Made by a program: the position numbers and the translations under genes. Source: Pseudomonadota bacterium (GTDB lineage: Bacteria > Bdellovibrionota_B > Oligoflexia > Oligoflexales > CAIYRB01). Taken from it: a DNA stretch of 38,401 nt. The DNA lies in contig JAPLFX010000150.1 in assembly GCA_026390445.1 (NCBI GenBank), forward strand, positions 1 to 38,401. The letters are read 5' to 3'. The number at the start of each line of letters is the position of its first letter. Within the stretch, counting starts at the first letter, position 1. This document shows, piece after piece, positions 255 to 5,957 of this stretch. The notes under the pieces were generated by a model. The model had not been told where the DNA came from, made no database searches, and saw nothing but the letters and a program-made list of their open reading frames with translations.

Positions 255-286
255 GCTGCGGTCACGGCCATCTTTCGTTGATCAGT

Positions 287-329
287 GGTCTGCGCAAACC
301 CTGTCCTTTAGGGCAGGGTCGAGCAGACC
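287..329 (+). repeat. Nested left-end hairpin of the IS element
   Basis: 7-bp outer stem GGTCTGC/GCAGACC and 8-bp inner stem CCCTGTCC/GGGCAGGG (one G-T) with a TTTA loop. Confidence 0.75.
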
Positions 330-403
330 GGCCCGACTCGGCGCGGGCGCCGAGGAGTTGTGCGGCCGAAGCGGCCACTCCGCGTCATCAAAGTTCTAGT
401 TTT

Positions 404-422
404 TACCATACGATGTATGGTA
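404..422. promoter_or_regulatory. Perfect 8-bp inverted repeat just upstream of tnpB (possible operator or RBS-sequestering hairpin)
   Basis: TACCATAC-GAT-GTATGGTA at 404-422, ending 10 bp before the ATG at 433. Confidence 0.5.
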
Positions 423-432
423 CCTATGTGGC

Positions 433-2184
433 ATGACGCGCAAGACCACACCAACCTTTATCGCTGAATTCGAGCTTCTTGAAGGCTCTCCTGGCGCTTT
501 TGGCGTTGTCGACCGAGTCGAAAGTTTGGCCCGGTCGCTGACCAATGCGGCTTTAGGAAGGTTTCGAGATAGGGTGCGAACGGCTAAGTCTACCCCAGCG
601 TGGGCAGTGGCCAGGCGTCAGCCAAAGGGGATGGCAAGAAACCAGGCATTCGACGCGGTGCGTGAGGCGTACGGCCTCACTAAATACGATGTGTCTGGCG
701 TTGTAACTTCGATGAAAAACTCCTACCCAGACGCCGCTAATTATTTGGGTGCTCACGTCACTCAGAAGATCGCTGCGAGGGTTTGGCAGGCGGTCGAAAG
801 GCTTTTATTTGCGAAAGCAAAGCGCATTCGTTTCAAGAATAAGAATGAAAGCCTAAGTTTTGAAGGGCAAAACAACGCCACGTTTTTGCGTTTTTTCTTC
901 GGACACGGTCCTCTTTTTGCGCCGTTTGTCACGCTAGATGGGGCCCTGCTTCTTGCAAAGTTCGAGTACAAAAACCCCTACCACCGGCATGCAAGCGAGC
1001 ACCGAGTCAAGTATGTCCGCATTGTAAAGCGCGTGATCCGCGGTCAAACGCGGTACTATGCGCAAGTGGTCTTGGAGGGCTTCGCCTACCGGGACTTGAA
1101 AAAGGAGGAAACGCACCGACTGAAGATGGCGGAACATCTTCTAGGCGAGGGATATGCTGGTGCTATGCACTGCGTTGAAAAGGCGTACCAGAACCGCGTC
1201 GCCGTGGATTTTGGCCCTTCTCGCGTCGCGATCTCCAATGCTGTCGTCAGTTTCGAAAGAGACATTGCCGGGGAGATCAAAGACAAGACCAAAGCCACCC
1301 GGCGCTACAATCGCAAGATGGACCGGCAACGGCGAGCGGCAAATCCCCAAAATTATAACGCCAACGGCACCATCCGCAAAGGCCGCAAGACCTGGCTAAA
1401 GAAAATTAGGTATCAGCAAACGCAAGCTAAGCATGCCGAATCTTGCAGGCAGGCTTCGGCACAGAGAAAGTCCATCCACGGCAATCTTACTTACGACGTG
1501 CTGACACTTGGCACAGAGGTGATTGTCGAGAAGGTTAGTTACAAAGCTTGGCAACGGTCAAGGTTTGGTAAGTCGATTGCAAAGCATGGCCCATCAGCCC
1601 TAGAAGGCACGTTAACCCGTAAAGCTGAAAACGCTCGGGGATCGGTCACGCGCGTCAATACTTACCAAACAGCCCTTTCGTCTACATGCCTTTGCGGTGC
1701 CAGGTGCAAAAAGACGCTTAGTCAGCGTTTTCATGCCTGCACTGCCTGCGGCCTGGGGACGGCGGCGCCGCTGCCTCGCGATACGTTTTCAGCCTATCTT
1801 GCGATCTTTACGGAAAGCGAGACGGTTAGCAGGAAGAAGGGCAAGGCAGCAACGCTGTCCTCGAGGCTTGACCTCGAGGCAGCCAACAGCCACGCCCCAG
1901 GACATAGAACTTTGTCCTGCGTTTTGTCCGCCGCGGCTTTCTCCCAGAAGCCGCGGCCAGCAAGTCGGCCTGCCGTCGAAGTCGCCACGCAAGTGGCTGC
2001 GCAAGTCCAATCACCCGAGGCTTTAAATACCGACGGTGGGCACGAGCTACGCGTGCCTAGAGGACTAGGAGCGAAAAGTGGTAGTAGGGCCGACCTAGAG
2101 TCCGCGAAACCTCGCCAGCGAAAGCCAGCGAGACAGGTACGGAATGCGGTCACGTCCGATGCTTCAAGAATCCCCTTCCTTTAG
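433..2184 (+). CDS. tnpB: TnpB-like RNA-guided RuvC nuclease with zinc ribbon and long basic C-terminal tail
   Basis: RuvC-I VAVDFGPSRVAISNA (D259), RuvC-II VIVEKVSYKAW (E366), zinc ribbon CLCGARCKKTLSQRFHACTACG, RuvC-III RDTFSAYLA (D450). Stop TAG at 2182-2184 lies in the right-end hairpin. Confidence 0.85.
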   Translation: MTRKTTPTFIAEFELLEGSPGAFGVVDRVESLARSLTNAALGRFRDRVRTAKSTPAWAVARRQPKGMARNQAFDAVREAYGLTKYDVSGVVTSMKNSYPDAANYLGAHVTQKIAARVWQAVERLLFAKAKRIRFKNKNESLSFEGQNNATFLRFFFGHGPLFAPFVTLDGALLLAKFEYKNPYHRHASEHRVKYVRIVKRVIRGQTRYYAQVVLEGFAYRDLKKEETHRLKMAEHLLGEGYAGAMHCVEKAYQNRVAVDFGPSRVAISNAVVSFERDIAGEIKDKTKATRRYNRKMDRQRRAANPQNYNANGTIRKGRKTWLKKIRYQQTQAKHAESCRQASAQRKSIHGNLTYDVLTLGTEVIVEKVSYKAWQRSRFGKSIAKHGPSALEGTLTRKAENARGSVTRVNTYQTALSSTCLCGARCKKTLSQRFHACTACGLGTAAPLPRDTFSAYLAIFTESETVSRKKGKAATLSSRLDLEAANSHAPGHRTLSCVLSAAAFSQKPRPASRPAVEVATQVAAQVQSPEALNTDGGHELRVPRGLGAKSGSRADLESAKPRQRKPARQVRNAVTSDASRIPFL

Positions 2185-2200
2185 TGAGGGGAGGTTCAAC
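1859..2200 (+). ncRNA. Candidate omega-RNA (reRNA) scaffold overlapping the tnpB 3' end and element right end
   Basis: Hairpins in series: CCTCGAGG 1859-1866/1872-1879; CAGGACA/TGTCCTG 1898-1904/1913-1919; GCCGCGGCTT/AAGCCGCGGC 1930-1939/1948-1957; GCCAC-GCAA-GTGGC 1984-1997; CCTAG/CTAGG 2056-2060/2065-2069; CTCGC/GCGAG 2111-2115/2128-2132; right-end hairpin 2172-2191. Position agrees with known TnpB reRNAs. The 5' boundary is a guess. Confidence 0.55.
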
Positions 2201-3233
2201 AGTGACCGACGATTCGCCCAGAAAGCCAGCTGACGGGGCGCGGCTTGCAAGGCTTAGCCCGGGCCTCGGCGCGCTCGGCTAACTTAAGATAGCGTGGCGG
2301 TAGCTCGAGGATGAACTCCTGGGCTTGCTTGCCGGCGTTGGTGCGTACGTCGATGCGCTCGATCTCCCACAGGCGCACCAGATGTTGCATAATGCGGGCA
2401 TAGTCCATAGTGGTGTAAATGCCATTGCGTTGTGTGATCGCGGAGAACCAAGAGAACAGGTCGGTATCGGCGTCGGTGCCGTCCTGCATAGTGCGGGATG
2501 GCATGATGATGGTCTTACGCAGCATGGACGCCAGCGCCAGCATGCAATCATCGGGTGTCAGCTCGAAAATCTTGGCGACCAAGCGCTCGTAAGCCCGCTC
2601 GTGGCGAACTTCGTCCCCAGCGATGTGGTCGCATAAGGTAGCGATCTGCGTCTCGCCGTGCTGGCGGGCTAAGCGCGCGACGCCGCTGTGCGAGATGTAA
2701 GTCGCGCGTTCTTGGAACGAGGTATAGATAAAACCCTGCGCAAAGCTGTTCTCGGTAAGTGGGTTAAAGCCATTGCGCAGGAGGTTTTGAATAGTGACCT
2801 CGACAGCACGCATATCGACTCGTCCGGACAAATACAGATAGCTGGCTAGGGCATCACCATGGCGCTTTTCCTCAGCGACCCAACCGCGGATCCATCTTGC
2901 CATGGCGTTGCTGCCGGTACCGCTGCGGTCAAAGCCGCTGCCGAGATTGGCCAGCCAGGCATGGTAGCTGGGCAGAGCCTCTTCAGTGATCATATTGGCA
3001 ATCAGGGTGACTAGGACGTCGTCCGGCAGGGCCGCAGCCATGCGGCGAAAGTCGCTGACCTCATCAACCCAGTCGGGTGAGCGCAGGTCTGGCAGGAGAT
3101 CGCTGGGCTGCCAGCACTTATCCACGGGCAGCAGAGACCCAAAGTTGTTTTCCATGTACGCGTCTAGAGCGGCCATCACCTCATGCGGAGGGGTAGGCGT
3201 TCCAGGGTCGTAGTGTTTTGATGTTTTGGTCAA
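2196..3233 (-). CDS. Acyl-[acyl-carrier-protein] desaturase, ferritin-like diiron family; 3' end altered by the adjacent IS
   Basis: Diiron motifs VAEEKRHGDAL (EExRH) and IAGDEVRHERAY (DExRH); overall FA_desaturase_2-like layout. The stop codon (2196-2198) lies in the IS right-end sequence. Confidence 0.88.
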   Translation of the reverse strand: MTKTSKHYDPGTPTPPHEVMAALDAYMENNFGSLLPVDKCWQPSDLLPDLRSPDWVDEVSDFRRMAAALPDDVLVTLIANMITEEALPSYHAWLANLGSGFDRSGTGSNAMARWIRGWVAEEKRHGDALASYLYLSGRVDMRAVEVTIQNLLRNGFNPLTENSFAQGFIYTSFQERATYISHSGVARLARQHGETQIATLCDHIAGDEVRHERAYERLVAKIFELTPDDCMLALASMLRKTIIMPSRTMQDGTDADTDLFSWFSAITQRNGIYTTMDYARIMQHLVRLWEIERIDVRTNAGKQAQEFILELPPRYLKLAERAEARAKPCKPRPVSWLSGRIVGHC

Positions 3234-3404
3234 AGCGGTCCTCGTTGATGCTGAAGCCTGAGACCCGAGAGTAGTCAGCAGGGAGTCATACCAAGCGCAG
3301 CCAGGGCATGATGCGGTGAGGCAGTGCTTTTACGAACAAATCAGTACACTCTTTGCCCCACCATAGCCGTCTTTAGGACGAAATGAACAGCTTTATTTTC
3401 CTTA

Positions 3405-5957
3405 TTAAAAAGTCCAATCGAAGCGGTAGGTCAAGAGTTCCCGCTTGTAGCCGTTGACGCTGCGACTCGATTTTTGCTTGTCATAGCCCAGTTCCAAGGT
3501 TTGGCTCAGTGGCGGGAGGAAATACCAGCGCCACCCTGCATTGACCTCCATCAAGGTGTCCTTGCGGTGATCATCGGACGTGGAGAAGGTGCGCGTCGTG
3601 CCGCCCAGTCCGGCGCTCCATATGCTGCGTGGAGTGGAGGCGTAGTCGAAGTGTGCCTTTAGACCGAGGAGTCGATACGATTCTGCTGCTTCATAGCTCG
3701 ACTTATAGGTGGTTTTGCCGGAGCTTAGATCAATATCGCAACGCAGGTGATCGCCTCGCAGCGGGGTGATGCCAACGCTGTAGTAAAGGAGACGCGAGGA
3801 GCGGTCGCCAGGCGTGACCACCTCCCAAAGCAGCGGATCGACAATGATAGCGCGGGCTGGCAGTGGATCTACCGCATTGGTTGGAGCGATAGCTAGGCGA
3901 AGGTCGAAGAAGGCCGGCGACGAGATCGACAGGACTTGGCCGAGTTCATCCATGGCCGGCTGGCCGCCAATCGCCAGGCTCCGGGCGAACAACTCCAGGC
4001 CAAGGGCTAGAGGCTGGGGTCCATCACCGTCGCCAAAGCCCAGGCGAAACCGCAGGGCAAGGTTTTGGTCGATGCGTGCGAGCGGTCCCAGAGACTTTGT
4101 GAAATATCCGGTTTTGCCGTCGTCAAAGGCGATTTCGGTGCTGAAGCCCGAGGTGCGCCAAGGCCAAAGACTAAAGCCGATGGCGCCGACATAGCCGACT
4201 CCTTTTTTGGTCTTTAAGCCGGCGCCGAGCGTCGTTGGATCCAGATTGTCGGAGTGAAGGAGGTTTGAGTCATAAAGAAGGCCGCCGTGCGCCCTGAGGT
4301 CATACCATCGCGACGGCGTCGTGCGTTGCCGGAAGTCGCGCGCTGAGAGTGCTAATTCTGGGCTACCATCGTCTACCCAGAGGGCACGATCAAAGGCCGA
4401 TGCCGCGGTTGAACCGTCCTTGGCATAAAAGGCGGCGACGCCGAGTTCATAGTTGAGCCGTTGGCTGTCTGGTGCATCTTTGTCGCGGGCACTGCTGAGG
4501 TAGCGCTCAGCAGTGGCCCATTGCTGCGATAGCAGCGCCATCTCTCCCAGTAGCAATAACGGCTCAGGGGCATTTGGTTGCAGCGCAGCAGCGGCTTTTA
4601 GGGCGGTGACCGCAGCCTCGAAGAGGTAGAGGGCTTTGTAGGCTTCGCCGAGGGCCAGCTGGCCTTGATAGCTGGATTTGGCATCGGCGTATTTGGGCAG
4701 AAGGACTTCGAGGACCAGGATAGGGTCACCGCGCAGGGCGGCAGCTTTGGCCAGGGCCCCCTCTAGGCTTTTGGTTTTTGGCGCGCTGGCGGTGAAGGCG
4801 AGGGCGTTGCTGACACCCTCTTCCCAATGACCTTGGAGGTATTGCGGTGAGGTTTCAGCAACCAAGGCGGCAGTGGCTTTCAGCGGGGGAAGGCCGAGGC
4901 TGCTCGGATCTTCATCGGGACGTAAGGTCACCGATAGCCCTGCGGGAATGATCACGGCACTTCCGGCATCGTCGCCTTTACCCCCGCTGCGACTCCGGAT
5001 AAAGACTCGAGCATTGCCTCGCAGCACGGTGATCGTCACTGGGGTGTTGCTGAGGCCTGCGGCGCTTGGCTTGCTCTTCCTGTCGGAAGCCGGCGGCTTC
5101 TCGCCATCCGGAGAGTCGCCTGGTGAATCTTGGTCAGCGGACTGCTCGCCCTCCTCCCCGTCGTCATCGGTCGGAGCTTTTGCCGTGAATGCTTTGAGAT
5201 CATCCCGTGAAACGAGGATATCACCGTCGGCGTCGGTATCGATCTGCACGAGGTCGGGCACCACCACCGACCAGCGCGGGGCCGCTTTACCCAGGCTCCG
5301 CGAGCGCAGGGTGCCGCGCTTTAGGATAATAGCGCGCCGTTCTTGATCGGTAGTCATAAGGCGGACGGCAGAGCCCCCGGCTAGGGTGTGAGCTTCGACG
5401 CCGACCCGGCCAAAGTCTAGCCCACCGAATTTATTGGTACGTAGACTCTCGCTCCAGTCGAGGGCTCGGGGCAAAGGGCCGAGAACCTGGAGCTTTTTCT
5501 GATGGTAGCTGTAGCCTCGGCCGTGGACGGATTTGACCGTGAGGTCATAAGCATTGGCGGACTCGGCTTCATCTGAAGCTGGGATCATATCCGGCTGGAC
5601 TTGCTGTGGCCGATGACTCTCTGGGGCGGCGACGACACGGATGTGATAGCGCACAAACTTGGACCCGGCCTTATTGTAGACGACGAACACCAAATGGTGC
5701 AGGCCGATCTCCCAATGGCTGGTGTCGATGCTGCAGCTTAGGGTGCGGCAAAAAACCGTAGGACCCTTGAACCACTTGGCTTCCACCTCGCTACTGGTGG
5801 TTTTAACGGCCACCGCGACGGTGTCGCCTTGGTAAACGGTAAACGATTTGTCCGAGTGTGCGGTGATCTCAGGCAGAATGTCGGCGCGACTGGGCGAAGT
5901 GGCGAACATTGCCGCTAAGGCCAGCCATAGGGTGGTGAAGTGAGCTTGAAAGCGCAT
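3405..5957 (-). CDS. Exported FecR-domain/TPR protein with C-terminal beta-barrel-like region
   Basis: Signal peptide from M at 5957 (MRFQAHFTTLWLALAAMFATSPSRA); FecR-like segment (GGSAVRLMTTDQERRAIILKRGTLRSRSLG); TPR-like helical repeats; C-terminus of alternating strands ending in YRFDWTF. Confidence 0.65.
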   Translation of the reverse strand: MRFQAHFTTLWLALAAMFATSPSRADILPEITAHSDKSFTVYQGDTVAVAVKTTSSEVEAKWFKGPTVFCRTLSCSIDTSHWEIGLHHLVFVVYNKAGSKFVRYHIRVVAAPESHRPQQVQPDMIPASDEAESANAYDLTVKSVHGRGYSYHQKKLQVLGPLPRALDWSESLRTNKFGGLDFGRVGVEAHTLAGGSAVRLMTTDQERRAIILKRGTLRSRSLGKAAPRWSVVVPDLVQIDTDADGDILVSRDDLKAFTAKAPTDDDGEEGEQSADQDSPGDSPDGEKPPASDRKSKPSAAGLSNTPVTITVLRGNARVFIRSRSGGKGDDAGSAVIIPAGLSVTLRPDEDPSSLGLPPLKATAALVAETSPQYLQGHWEEGVSNALAFTASAPKTKSLEGALAKAAALRGDPILVLEVLLPKYADAKSSYQGQLALGEAYKALYLFEAAVTALKAAAALQPNAPEPLLLLGEMALLSQQWATAERYLSSARDKDAPDSQRLNYELGVAAFYAKDGSTAASAFDRALWVDDGSPELALSARDFRQRTTPSRWYDLRAHGGLLYDSNLLHSDNLDPTTLGAGLKTKKGVGYVGAIGFSLWPWRTSGFSTEIAFDDGKTGYFTKSLGPLARIDQNLALRFRLGFGDGDGPQPLALGLELFARSLAIGGQPAMDELGQVLSISSPAFFDLRLAIAPTNAVDPLPARAIIVDPLLWEVVTPGDRSSRLLYYSVGITPLRGDHLRCDIDLSSGKTTYKSSYEAAESYRLLGLKAHFDYASTPRSIWSAGLGGTTRTFSTSDDHRKDTLMEVNAGWRWYFLPPLSQTLELGYDKQKSSRSVNGYKRELLTYRFDWTF

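Follow-up and report, generated by a model that had tools for sequence, protein, structure and literature searches.

A tnpB-only IS200/IS605 element inserted 3' of TTGAT in an Oligoflexales genome, and its unoccupied sites in sister genomes

The IS200/IS605 element ISDra2 of Deinococcus radiodurans inserts 3' of TTGAT without target duplication, has subterminal hairpins, and encodes a TnpB with a RuvC triad; its RNA scaffold derives from the tnpB 3' end together with the right end (PMC8612924). TTGAT serves ISDra2 both as target and as TAM, and in the model proposed for this element, cleavage by TnpB is followed by repair that restores the element (PMC8612924). In IS608, the right cleavage site TCAA is paired by the guide GAAT (PMC5934647). 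Elements of the IS1341 group carry only tnpB between IS200/IS605-type ends, and their TnpBs are 362–489 aa long in six species; whether such elements are mobilised by TnpA in trans or are dead remnants is an open question (PMC9956272).

The stretch of DNA analysed here (the window; 38,401 nucleotides) is one whole contig of genome G000. By its ends, its target, and its single gene, the element it contains is an IS1341-type (tnpB-only) member of the IS200/IS605 family. Like ISDra2, it is inserted 3' of TTGAT without duplication and has subterminal hairpins and a RuvC triad; an RNA scaffold from the tnpB 3' end and the right end is expected in the window by analogy (PMC8612924).

Ends and boundaries of the element

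An earlier, sequence-only reading had proposed a tnpB element lacking tnpA at 278–2200. tnpB is indeed the sole gene between the ends in the ORF list, and the features named are all present, yet the element proper is shorter by the TTGAT, which is the target, and by C2200, which belongs to the host flank (Table 1).

Table 1. Features of the element, and related loci in sister genomes
Feature	Position	Strand	Remarks
TTGAT: target, left cleavage site, presumed TAM	278–282	+	host sequence, single copy; kept once in unoccupied G002:C98
Complete element, 1,917 bp	283–2199	+	from G002:C98 empty site and copies with different flanks
Left-end structure	287–329	+	outer stem 287–293/323–329; inner hairpin 298–319, apex TCCTTTAGGG
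Guide-like GCAAA in left-end structure	294–298	+	between outer stem and inner hairpin
tnpB, 583 aa	433–2184	+	RuvC triad D259/E366/D450; CxC...CxxC zinc-ribbon-like motif 419–439
Presumed omega/reRNA scaffold	2060–2199	+	overlaps tnpB 3' end; ~150 nt extent by ISDra2 analogy (PMC8612924)
Right end	2168–2199	+	guide GAAT 2168–2171; hairpin 2172–2191; cleavage site TTCAA 2195–2199
Presumed RNA guide CAGTGACCGACGATTC, from 3' flank	2200–2215	+	~16 nt length taken from ISDra2 (PMC8612924)
Acyl-ACP desaturase-type gene (FA_desaturase_2)	2196–3233	−	stop codon replaced through the insertion
105-bp insert loci	G002 L095, L097–L105; G000 L096		both orientations
~165-nt tnpB-less forms	L034 G002:C172; L037 G002:C97; L038 G002:C25		C25 form: site empty, with exact junctions, in both G001 and G003

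Folding and comparison of copies revealed subterminal imperfect palindromes at both ends and no terminal inverted repeats. The left hairpin begins 4 nt after TTGAT, as had been described, with CAGT followed by GGTCTGC at 287, but it is not a simple hairpin: an outer stem encloses GCAA(A) and an inner hairpin. Read inwards from TTGAT, the order is CAGT, GGTCTGC, GCAA, ACCCTGTCC, TTTA, GGGCAGGGT, CGA, and GCAGACC. The predicted folding energy of the 55 nt 3' of this TTGAT, −30.5 kcal/mol, is the best among the 119 TTGATs of the window, and is equalled by 0.1% of random stretches. The right end reads GAAT-CCCC..CCTTTAG..GGGG-AGG-TTCAA. The common apex TCCTTTAG (positions 304 and 2177) and the AGGTTCAAC directly following the right hairpin are found where the sequence-only reading had them. 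The tnpB stop codon (2182–2184) lies within the right-end apex CCTTTAG; two A. caldus elements and one viral-contig relative likewise have a stop codon in the right-end apex. The presumed reRNA region folds into a stable structure that ends in the right-end hairpin. An Rfam search of the window gave no match, so no curated RNA family covers this region.

The right-end combination GAAT/TCAA is a pair of the IS608 type. In right ends of this tnpB branch, the base that follows GAA pairs with the base that follows TCA in 14 cases out of 14 (12 scored by script; L108 and L148, which the script anchored wrongly or missed, by eye). The pair is T/A in the window, in the relative from genome G031, in Vibrio, and in Calothrix, and C/G in all others. 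At the left end, GCAAA accompanies TTGAT in the window, while relatives have GCAAG with an apparent TGAC; this combination would fit the same pairing logic, with the left boundary of the relatives not independently fixed.

Copies and unoccupied sites in sister genomes

G002, a genome of the same genus, contains many partial copies of the element; its assembly is broken at repeats, and none of the copies is assembled end to end. At least four copies of tnpB, other than the one in the window, are present in G002, at different flanks. Left ends found at 16 or more places in G002 are common from TTGAT inwards and different outside, and every intact left end of the family, in G000 as well as in G002, is preceded by TTGAT. 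Right ends, in the window and in the G002 copies, all terminate in GGTTCAA, with differing flanks beyond. At least four left-side copies (C23, C206, C193, and C7) run towards or into tnpB, three right-side copies (C143, C202, and C60) do so from the other end, and C212 encodes TnpB residues 250–583 and stops exactly at TTCAA. Copies that are 97–99% identical share the same tnpA-less left end at several sites. A check of recent copies for purifying selection did not show it: there are few differences, and over half of those in coding sequence are non-synonymous.

Unoccupied sites could be read for five loci. The insertion site of the window is empty in G002:C98, where TTTCG-TTGAT/CAGTGGCCGACGAT corresponds to the occupied TTTCG-TTGAT/element/CAGTGACCGACGAT of the same locus. 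The right flank of the G002:C110 copy was found in G000:C67 directly behind TTTTGAT, and that of the copy at G002:C206:9911 in G000:C107 directly behind GATTGAT. These two sites are true predictions: with nothing but the right flank to start from, TTGAT turned up at the position demanded by the model. Both flanks of the G002:C25 copy are contiguous in G001:C196 and G003:C32 (TTTTGAT/GCTTGGG). In the case of G002:C172, the left flank ends with GGGTTGAT in G000:C265, and there is a 3-nt difference on the right. Thus, four of the five sites are exact wherever flanks are readable, and the fifth (C172) is exact on the left. TTGAT is at the junction in all five, and no target duplication was seen. 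Insertion 3' of TTGAT without duplication, as well as the ends themselves, for which the sequence-only reading had recommended a comparison of multiple genomic copies, are borne out by these data, which show that members of this element family have moved to several places in the sister genome. We considered whether the G002:C98 junction might be a deletion between CAGTG repeats and not a never-occupied site, since the left end and the target at that site have CAGTGG in common; however, the other four unoccupied sites have no such repeat and the same boundary.

In the window, the insertion hit the stop codon of the desaturase gene, changing the predicted C-terminus from ...IVGH to ...IVGHC, i.e., adding one Cys. 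The presumed guide CAGTGACCGACGATTC differs from the unoccupied site by one mismatch in the first 15 positions and another at position 16, a match that is as expected from the model. CAGT, the tetranucleotide with which the element itself begins, also opens 3 of 11 right flanks (window 2200–2207 and G002), which has a chance of ~1e-5 under equal base use. A single base is preferred after the cut in IS608 (C) and in ISDra2 (G) (PMC5934647), which does not account for a preference of four bases. Pairing of the left-end 3' arm extended to the target was tried as the cause of CAGT flanks and rejected: in IS608 such pairing occurs upstream of the site (PMC5934647), and extended pairing thus does not account for them.

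Three further observations concern individual segments of the window copy. Between the left end and tnpB, positions 331–382 form a GC-rich double stem-loop that is near-identical in G002 left-end copies covering it. Just 5' of the tnpB start, an 8-bp inverted repeat, TACCATAC-GAT-GTATGGTA (404–422), is mostly retained in the diverged G002:C23 copy and is a possible operator or part of a promoter; a promoter scan found none. Position 2185 is T in the window, where every right end read in G002 has G, which makes the right-end hairpin stem of the window copy weaker than that of the G002 copies.

A 105-bp hairpin-apex insert and tnpB-less forms

A 105-bp insert with inverted repeats, CTGACTTTTACCCA...TGGGTAAAAGTCAG, is present in 11 copies, one in G000 and the rest in G002. 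Every copy abuts the hairpin apex TCCTTTAGGG on all readable sides except one broken side (G000:C107), and TCCTTTAGGG is repeated on both sides of the insert when both can be read. At three loci, forms of ~165 nt consist of the left half-hairpin, the 105-bp insert, and the right half-hairpin, with TTGAT and TTCAA ends and no tnpB. These forms could be explained by recombination of two inserts, one at either end of the same element, with assembly breaks limiting the reading of their origin. Joined insert ends could form a hairpin, GTCAG-TCCTTTAGGG-CTGAC, with the same TCCTTTAGGG apex. A palindrome of ~62 bp at another G002 locus (L030, G002:C156:3732–3793) is a left-end hairpin closed by its own mirrored copy, TTGATCAGTGGTCTGC...GCAGACCACTGATCAA.

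SMR-A of Haloquadratum walsbyi, about 110 bp long and bounded by inverted terminal repeats, is inserted into palindromes close to the ends of both IS605-type elements and PATEs, and its movement was called enigmatic (PMC3119063). PATEs resemble the G002 family in being short tnpB-less forms with the same ends, and SMR-A resembles the G002 insert, found there in both orientations, as an inverted-repeat insert inside near-terminal palindromes (PMC3119063). Unlike SMR-A, the G002 insert is bacterial and has TCCTTTAGGG on both sides, which looks like a 10-bp duplication, while SMR-A was reported to be without any (PMC3119063). A literature search limited to open-licence papers found no bacterial report of an SMR-A-like repeat. 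We tentatively suggest, at somewhat less than even odds, that the insert is a bacterial counterpart of SMR-A, a parasite of IS200/IS605 end hairpins that could be mobile through exchange between hairpins of the same kind and would lead to loss of tnpB where both ends of an element carry it.

TnpB, mobilisation, and relation to known systems

The window TnpB matched the NCBIfam guided_TnpB profile with 69.5 bits (E 3.2e-19), under the 100-bit cut-off, which is a database threshold and not a biological definition; some relatives exceed it, including tnpA-linked ones of A. caldus and Pontibacillus. This score and the length of the protein agree with the earlier remark that it is not of the compact ISDra2 type. 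The three RuvC acids have exactly the numbering given in the sequence-only reading, and are invariant in 18 distinct homologues (two alignments, with a Geobacillus phage copy in both). Relatives with 25–38% identity occur on plasmids, phages, and viral contigs; among 58 genomes of the class, relatives at E 1e-20 are found only in G002, G054, and G031, and a scan of genome contigs with the single window protein returned a G002 contig only. The window protein on its own had no match in a phmmer search of the PDB; LaTranC, RdCas12n, and ISDra2 TnpB were reached only with the family profile. The AlphaFold2 model (pLDDT 71, pTM 0.42; residues 222–250 and 480–583 unreliable) had ISFba1 TnpB (E 1.5e-11) and ISDra2 TnpB (E 5.5e-11) as best Foldseek matches, a fold match that, given these confidence values, holds at domain level only. 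An extra segment before RuvC-I (residues ~222–258, about 1096–1206) is shared, among sequences aligned or read, only by the same-order G031 relative. The C-terminal 120 residues are unconserved and overlap the presumed reRNA.

An IS200-type tnpA was not found in the element or in G000 (93% complete), so mobilisation would have to occur in trans. Y1 matches in G000 are limited to two pieces at contig ends (G000:C207 and G000:C215), apparently one gene split by the assembly, which look RAYT-like by the motifs of that family; for this reason, and because they lie at broken contig ends, they were set aside as mobiliser. The best candidate for mobilisation in trans is probably encoded in G002:C39 (L144, 2354–4440), a complete IS605-type element with tnpA (2411–2887) and a different tnpB (2948–4330) in divergent arrangement. 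Its hairpins have the apex CCTTTAGGG, the same as in the window's family, and it adjoins a decayed left end of that family. Its tnpA is the only intact Y1 gene in G002, and the product is 40% identical to an A. caldus TnpA which sits beside a relative of the window tnpB.

We propose, with a probability of roughly 0.85, that the window contains a tnpB-only IS200/IS605 element whose site-specific insertion, observed here, involves TnpA acting in trans and TnpB with its reRNA. Judging from the ends and from what is known of the family, a Y1 transposase TnpA would read the end hairpins as single-stranded DNA, GCAAA and GAAT would guide its cuts after TTGAT and TTCAA, and one strand would be excised as a circle and pasted behind another TTGAT. 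TnpB would bind an RNA that derives from the 3' end of tnpB itself, from the right end, and from ~16 nt of flanking sequence; with CAGTGACCGACGATTC as guide, it may cut the resealed site of TTGAT plus flank. Repair from the sister would then restore the element, leading to its retention, or copy it. TnpB is thus a presumed nuclease, with TTGAT as its presumed TAM.

The same data bear on other readings of the locus. The window could hold a decayed IS605 copy that lost tnpA, no longer moves, and carries tnpB as a passenger, as the absence of tnpA from the element and from elsewhere in G000, the position of tnpA just upstream of tnpB in relatives, and the changed stem base at the right end might suggest. 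Yet the ORF is intact with its full triad, and G002 copies at several sites, 97–99% identical and alike in their tnpA-less left end, together with a site-specific window insertion that is absent from G002, imply that the tnpB-only form itself moved recently; we consider a dead copy improbable. Far less probable still is a domesticated, nuclease-dead RNA-guided repressor of the TldR kind: though tnpA is missing and the C-terminal region is long, the three RuvC acids are present and family-invariant, and the element is mobile and multi-copy with intact ends, in line with the sequence-only reading, which had also favoured an active nuclease over a TldR. Weak matches of some relatives to the C2c8 model and of the window protein to Cas12f might point to a small CRISPR-associated Cas12, which we regard as equally implausible, as these matches are far under cut-off and weaker than that to guided_TnpB, the gene sits between transposon ends, and no repeat array was found in the range scanned (1–2600).

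The preferred reading, a mobile tnpB-only element, places the locus among described systems as follows. ISDra2 differs from it in having its own tnpA and a TnpB of 408 aa, compared to 583 aa. IS605 elements of A. caldus pLAtc1, Pseudomonas sp. FeN3W, and Pontibacillus encode TnpBs 30–34% identical to that of the window, and share its left-end plan (outer stem, GCAAR, and inner hairpin), with the outer stem recurring in different sequences, as well as the GAAN/TCAN right end. Unlike the window element, they have tnpA just upstream of tnpB and G instead of A as the right cleavage base; their left target looks like TGAC instead of TTGAT, as judged from one or two copies only. With the IS1341 group, the element shares the presence of tnpB only and IS200/IS605-type ends, while its TnpB is longer than the 362–489 aa range of that group (PMC9956272). 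The element bears on whether IS1341-type elements move or are dead remnants, and is unusually well bounded for a tnpB-only element, as sister genomes supply unoccupied sites both for this insertion and for four relatives; no guessing is therefore needed to state its target, RNA guide, and presumed TAM, which are directly testable. The hairpin-apex insert, for its part, offers a bacterial system for studying SMR-A-like repeats.
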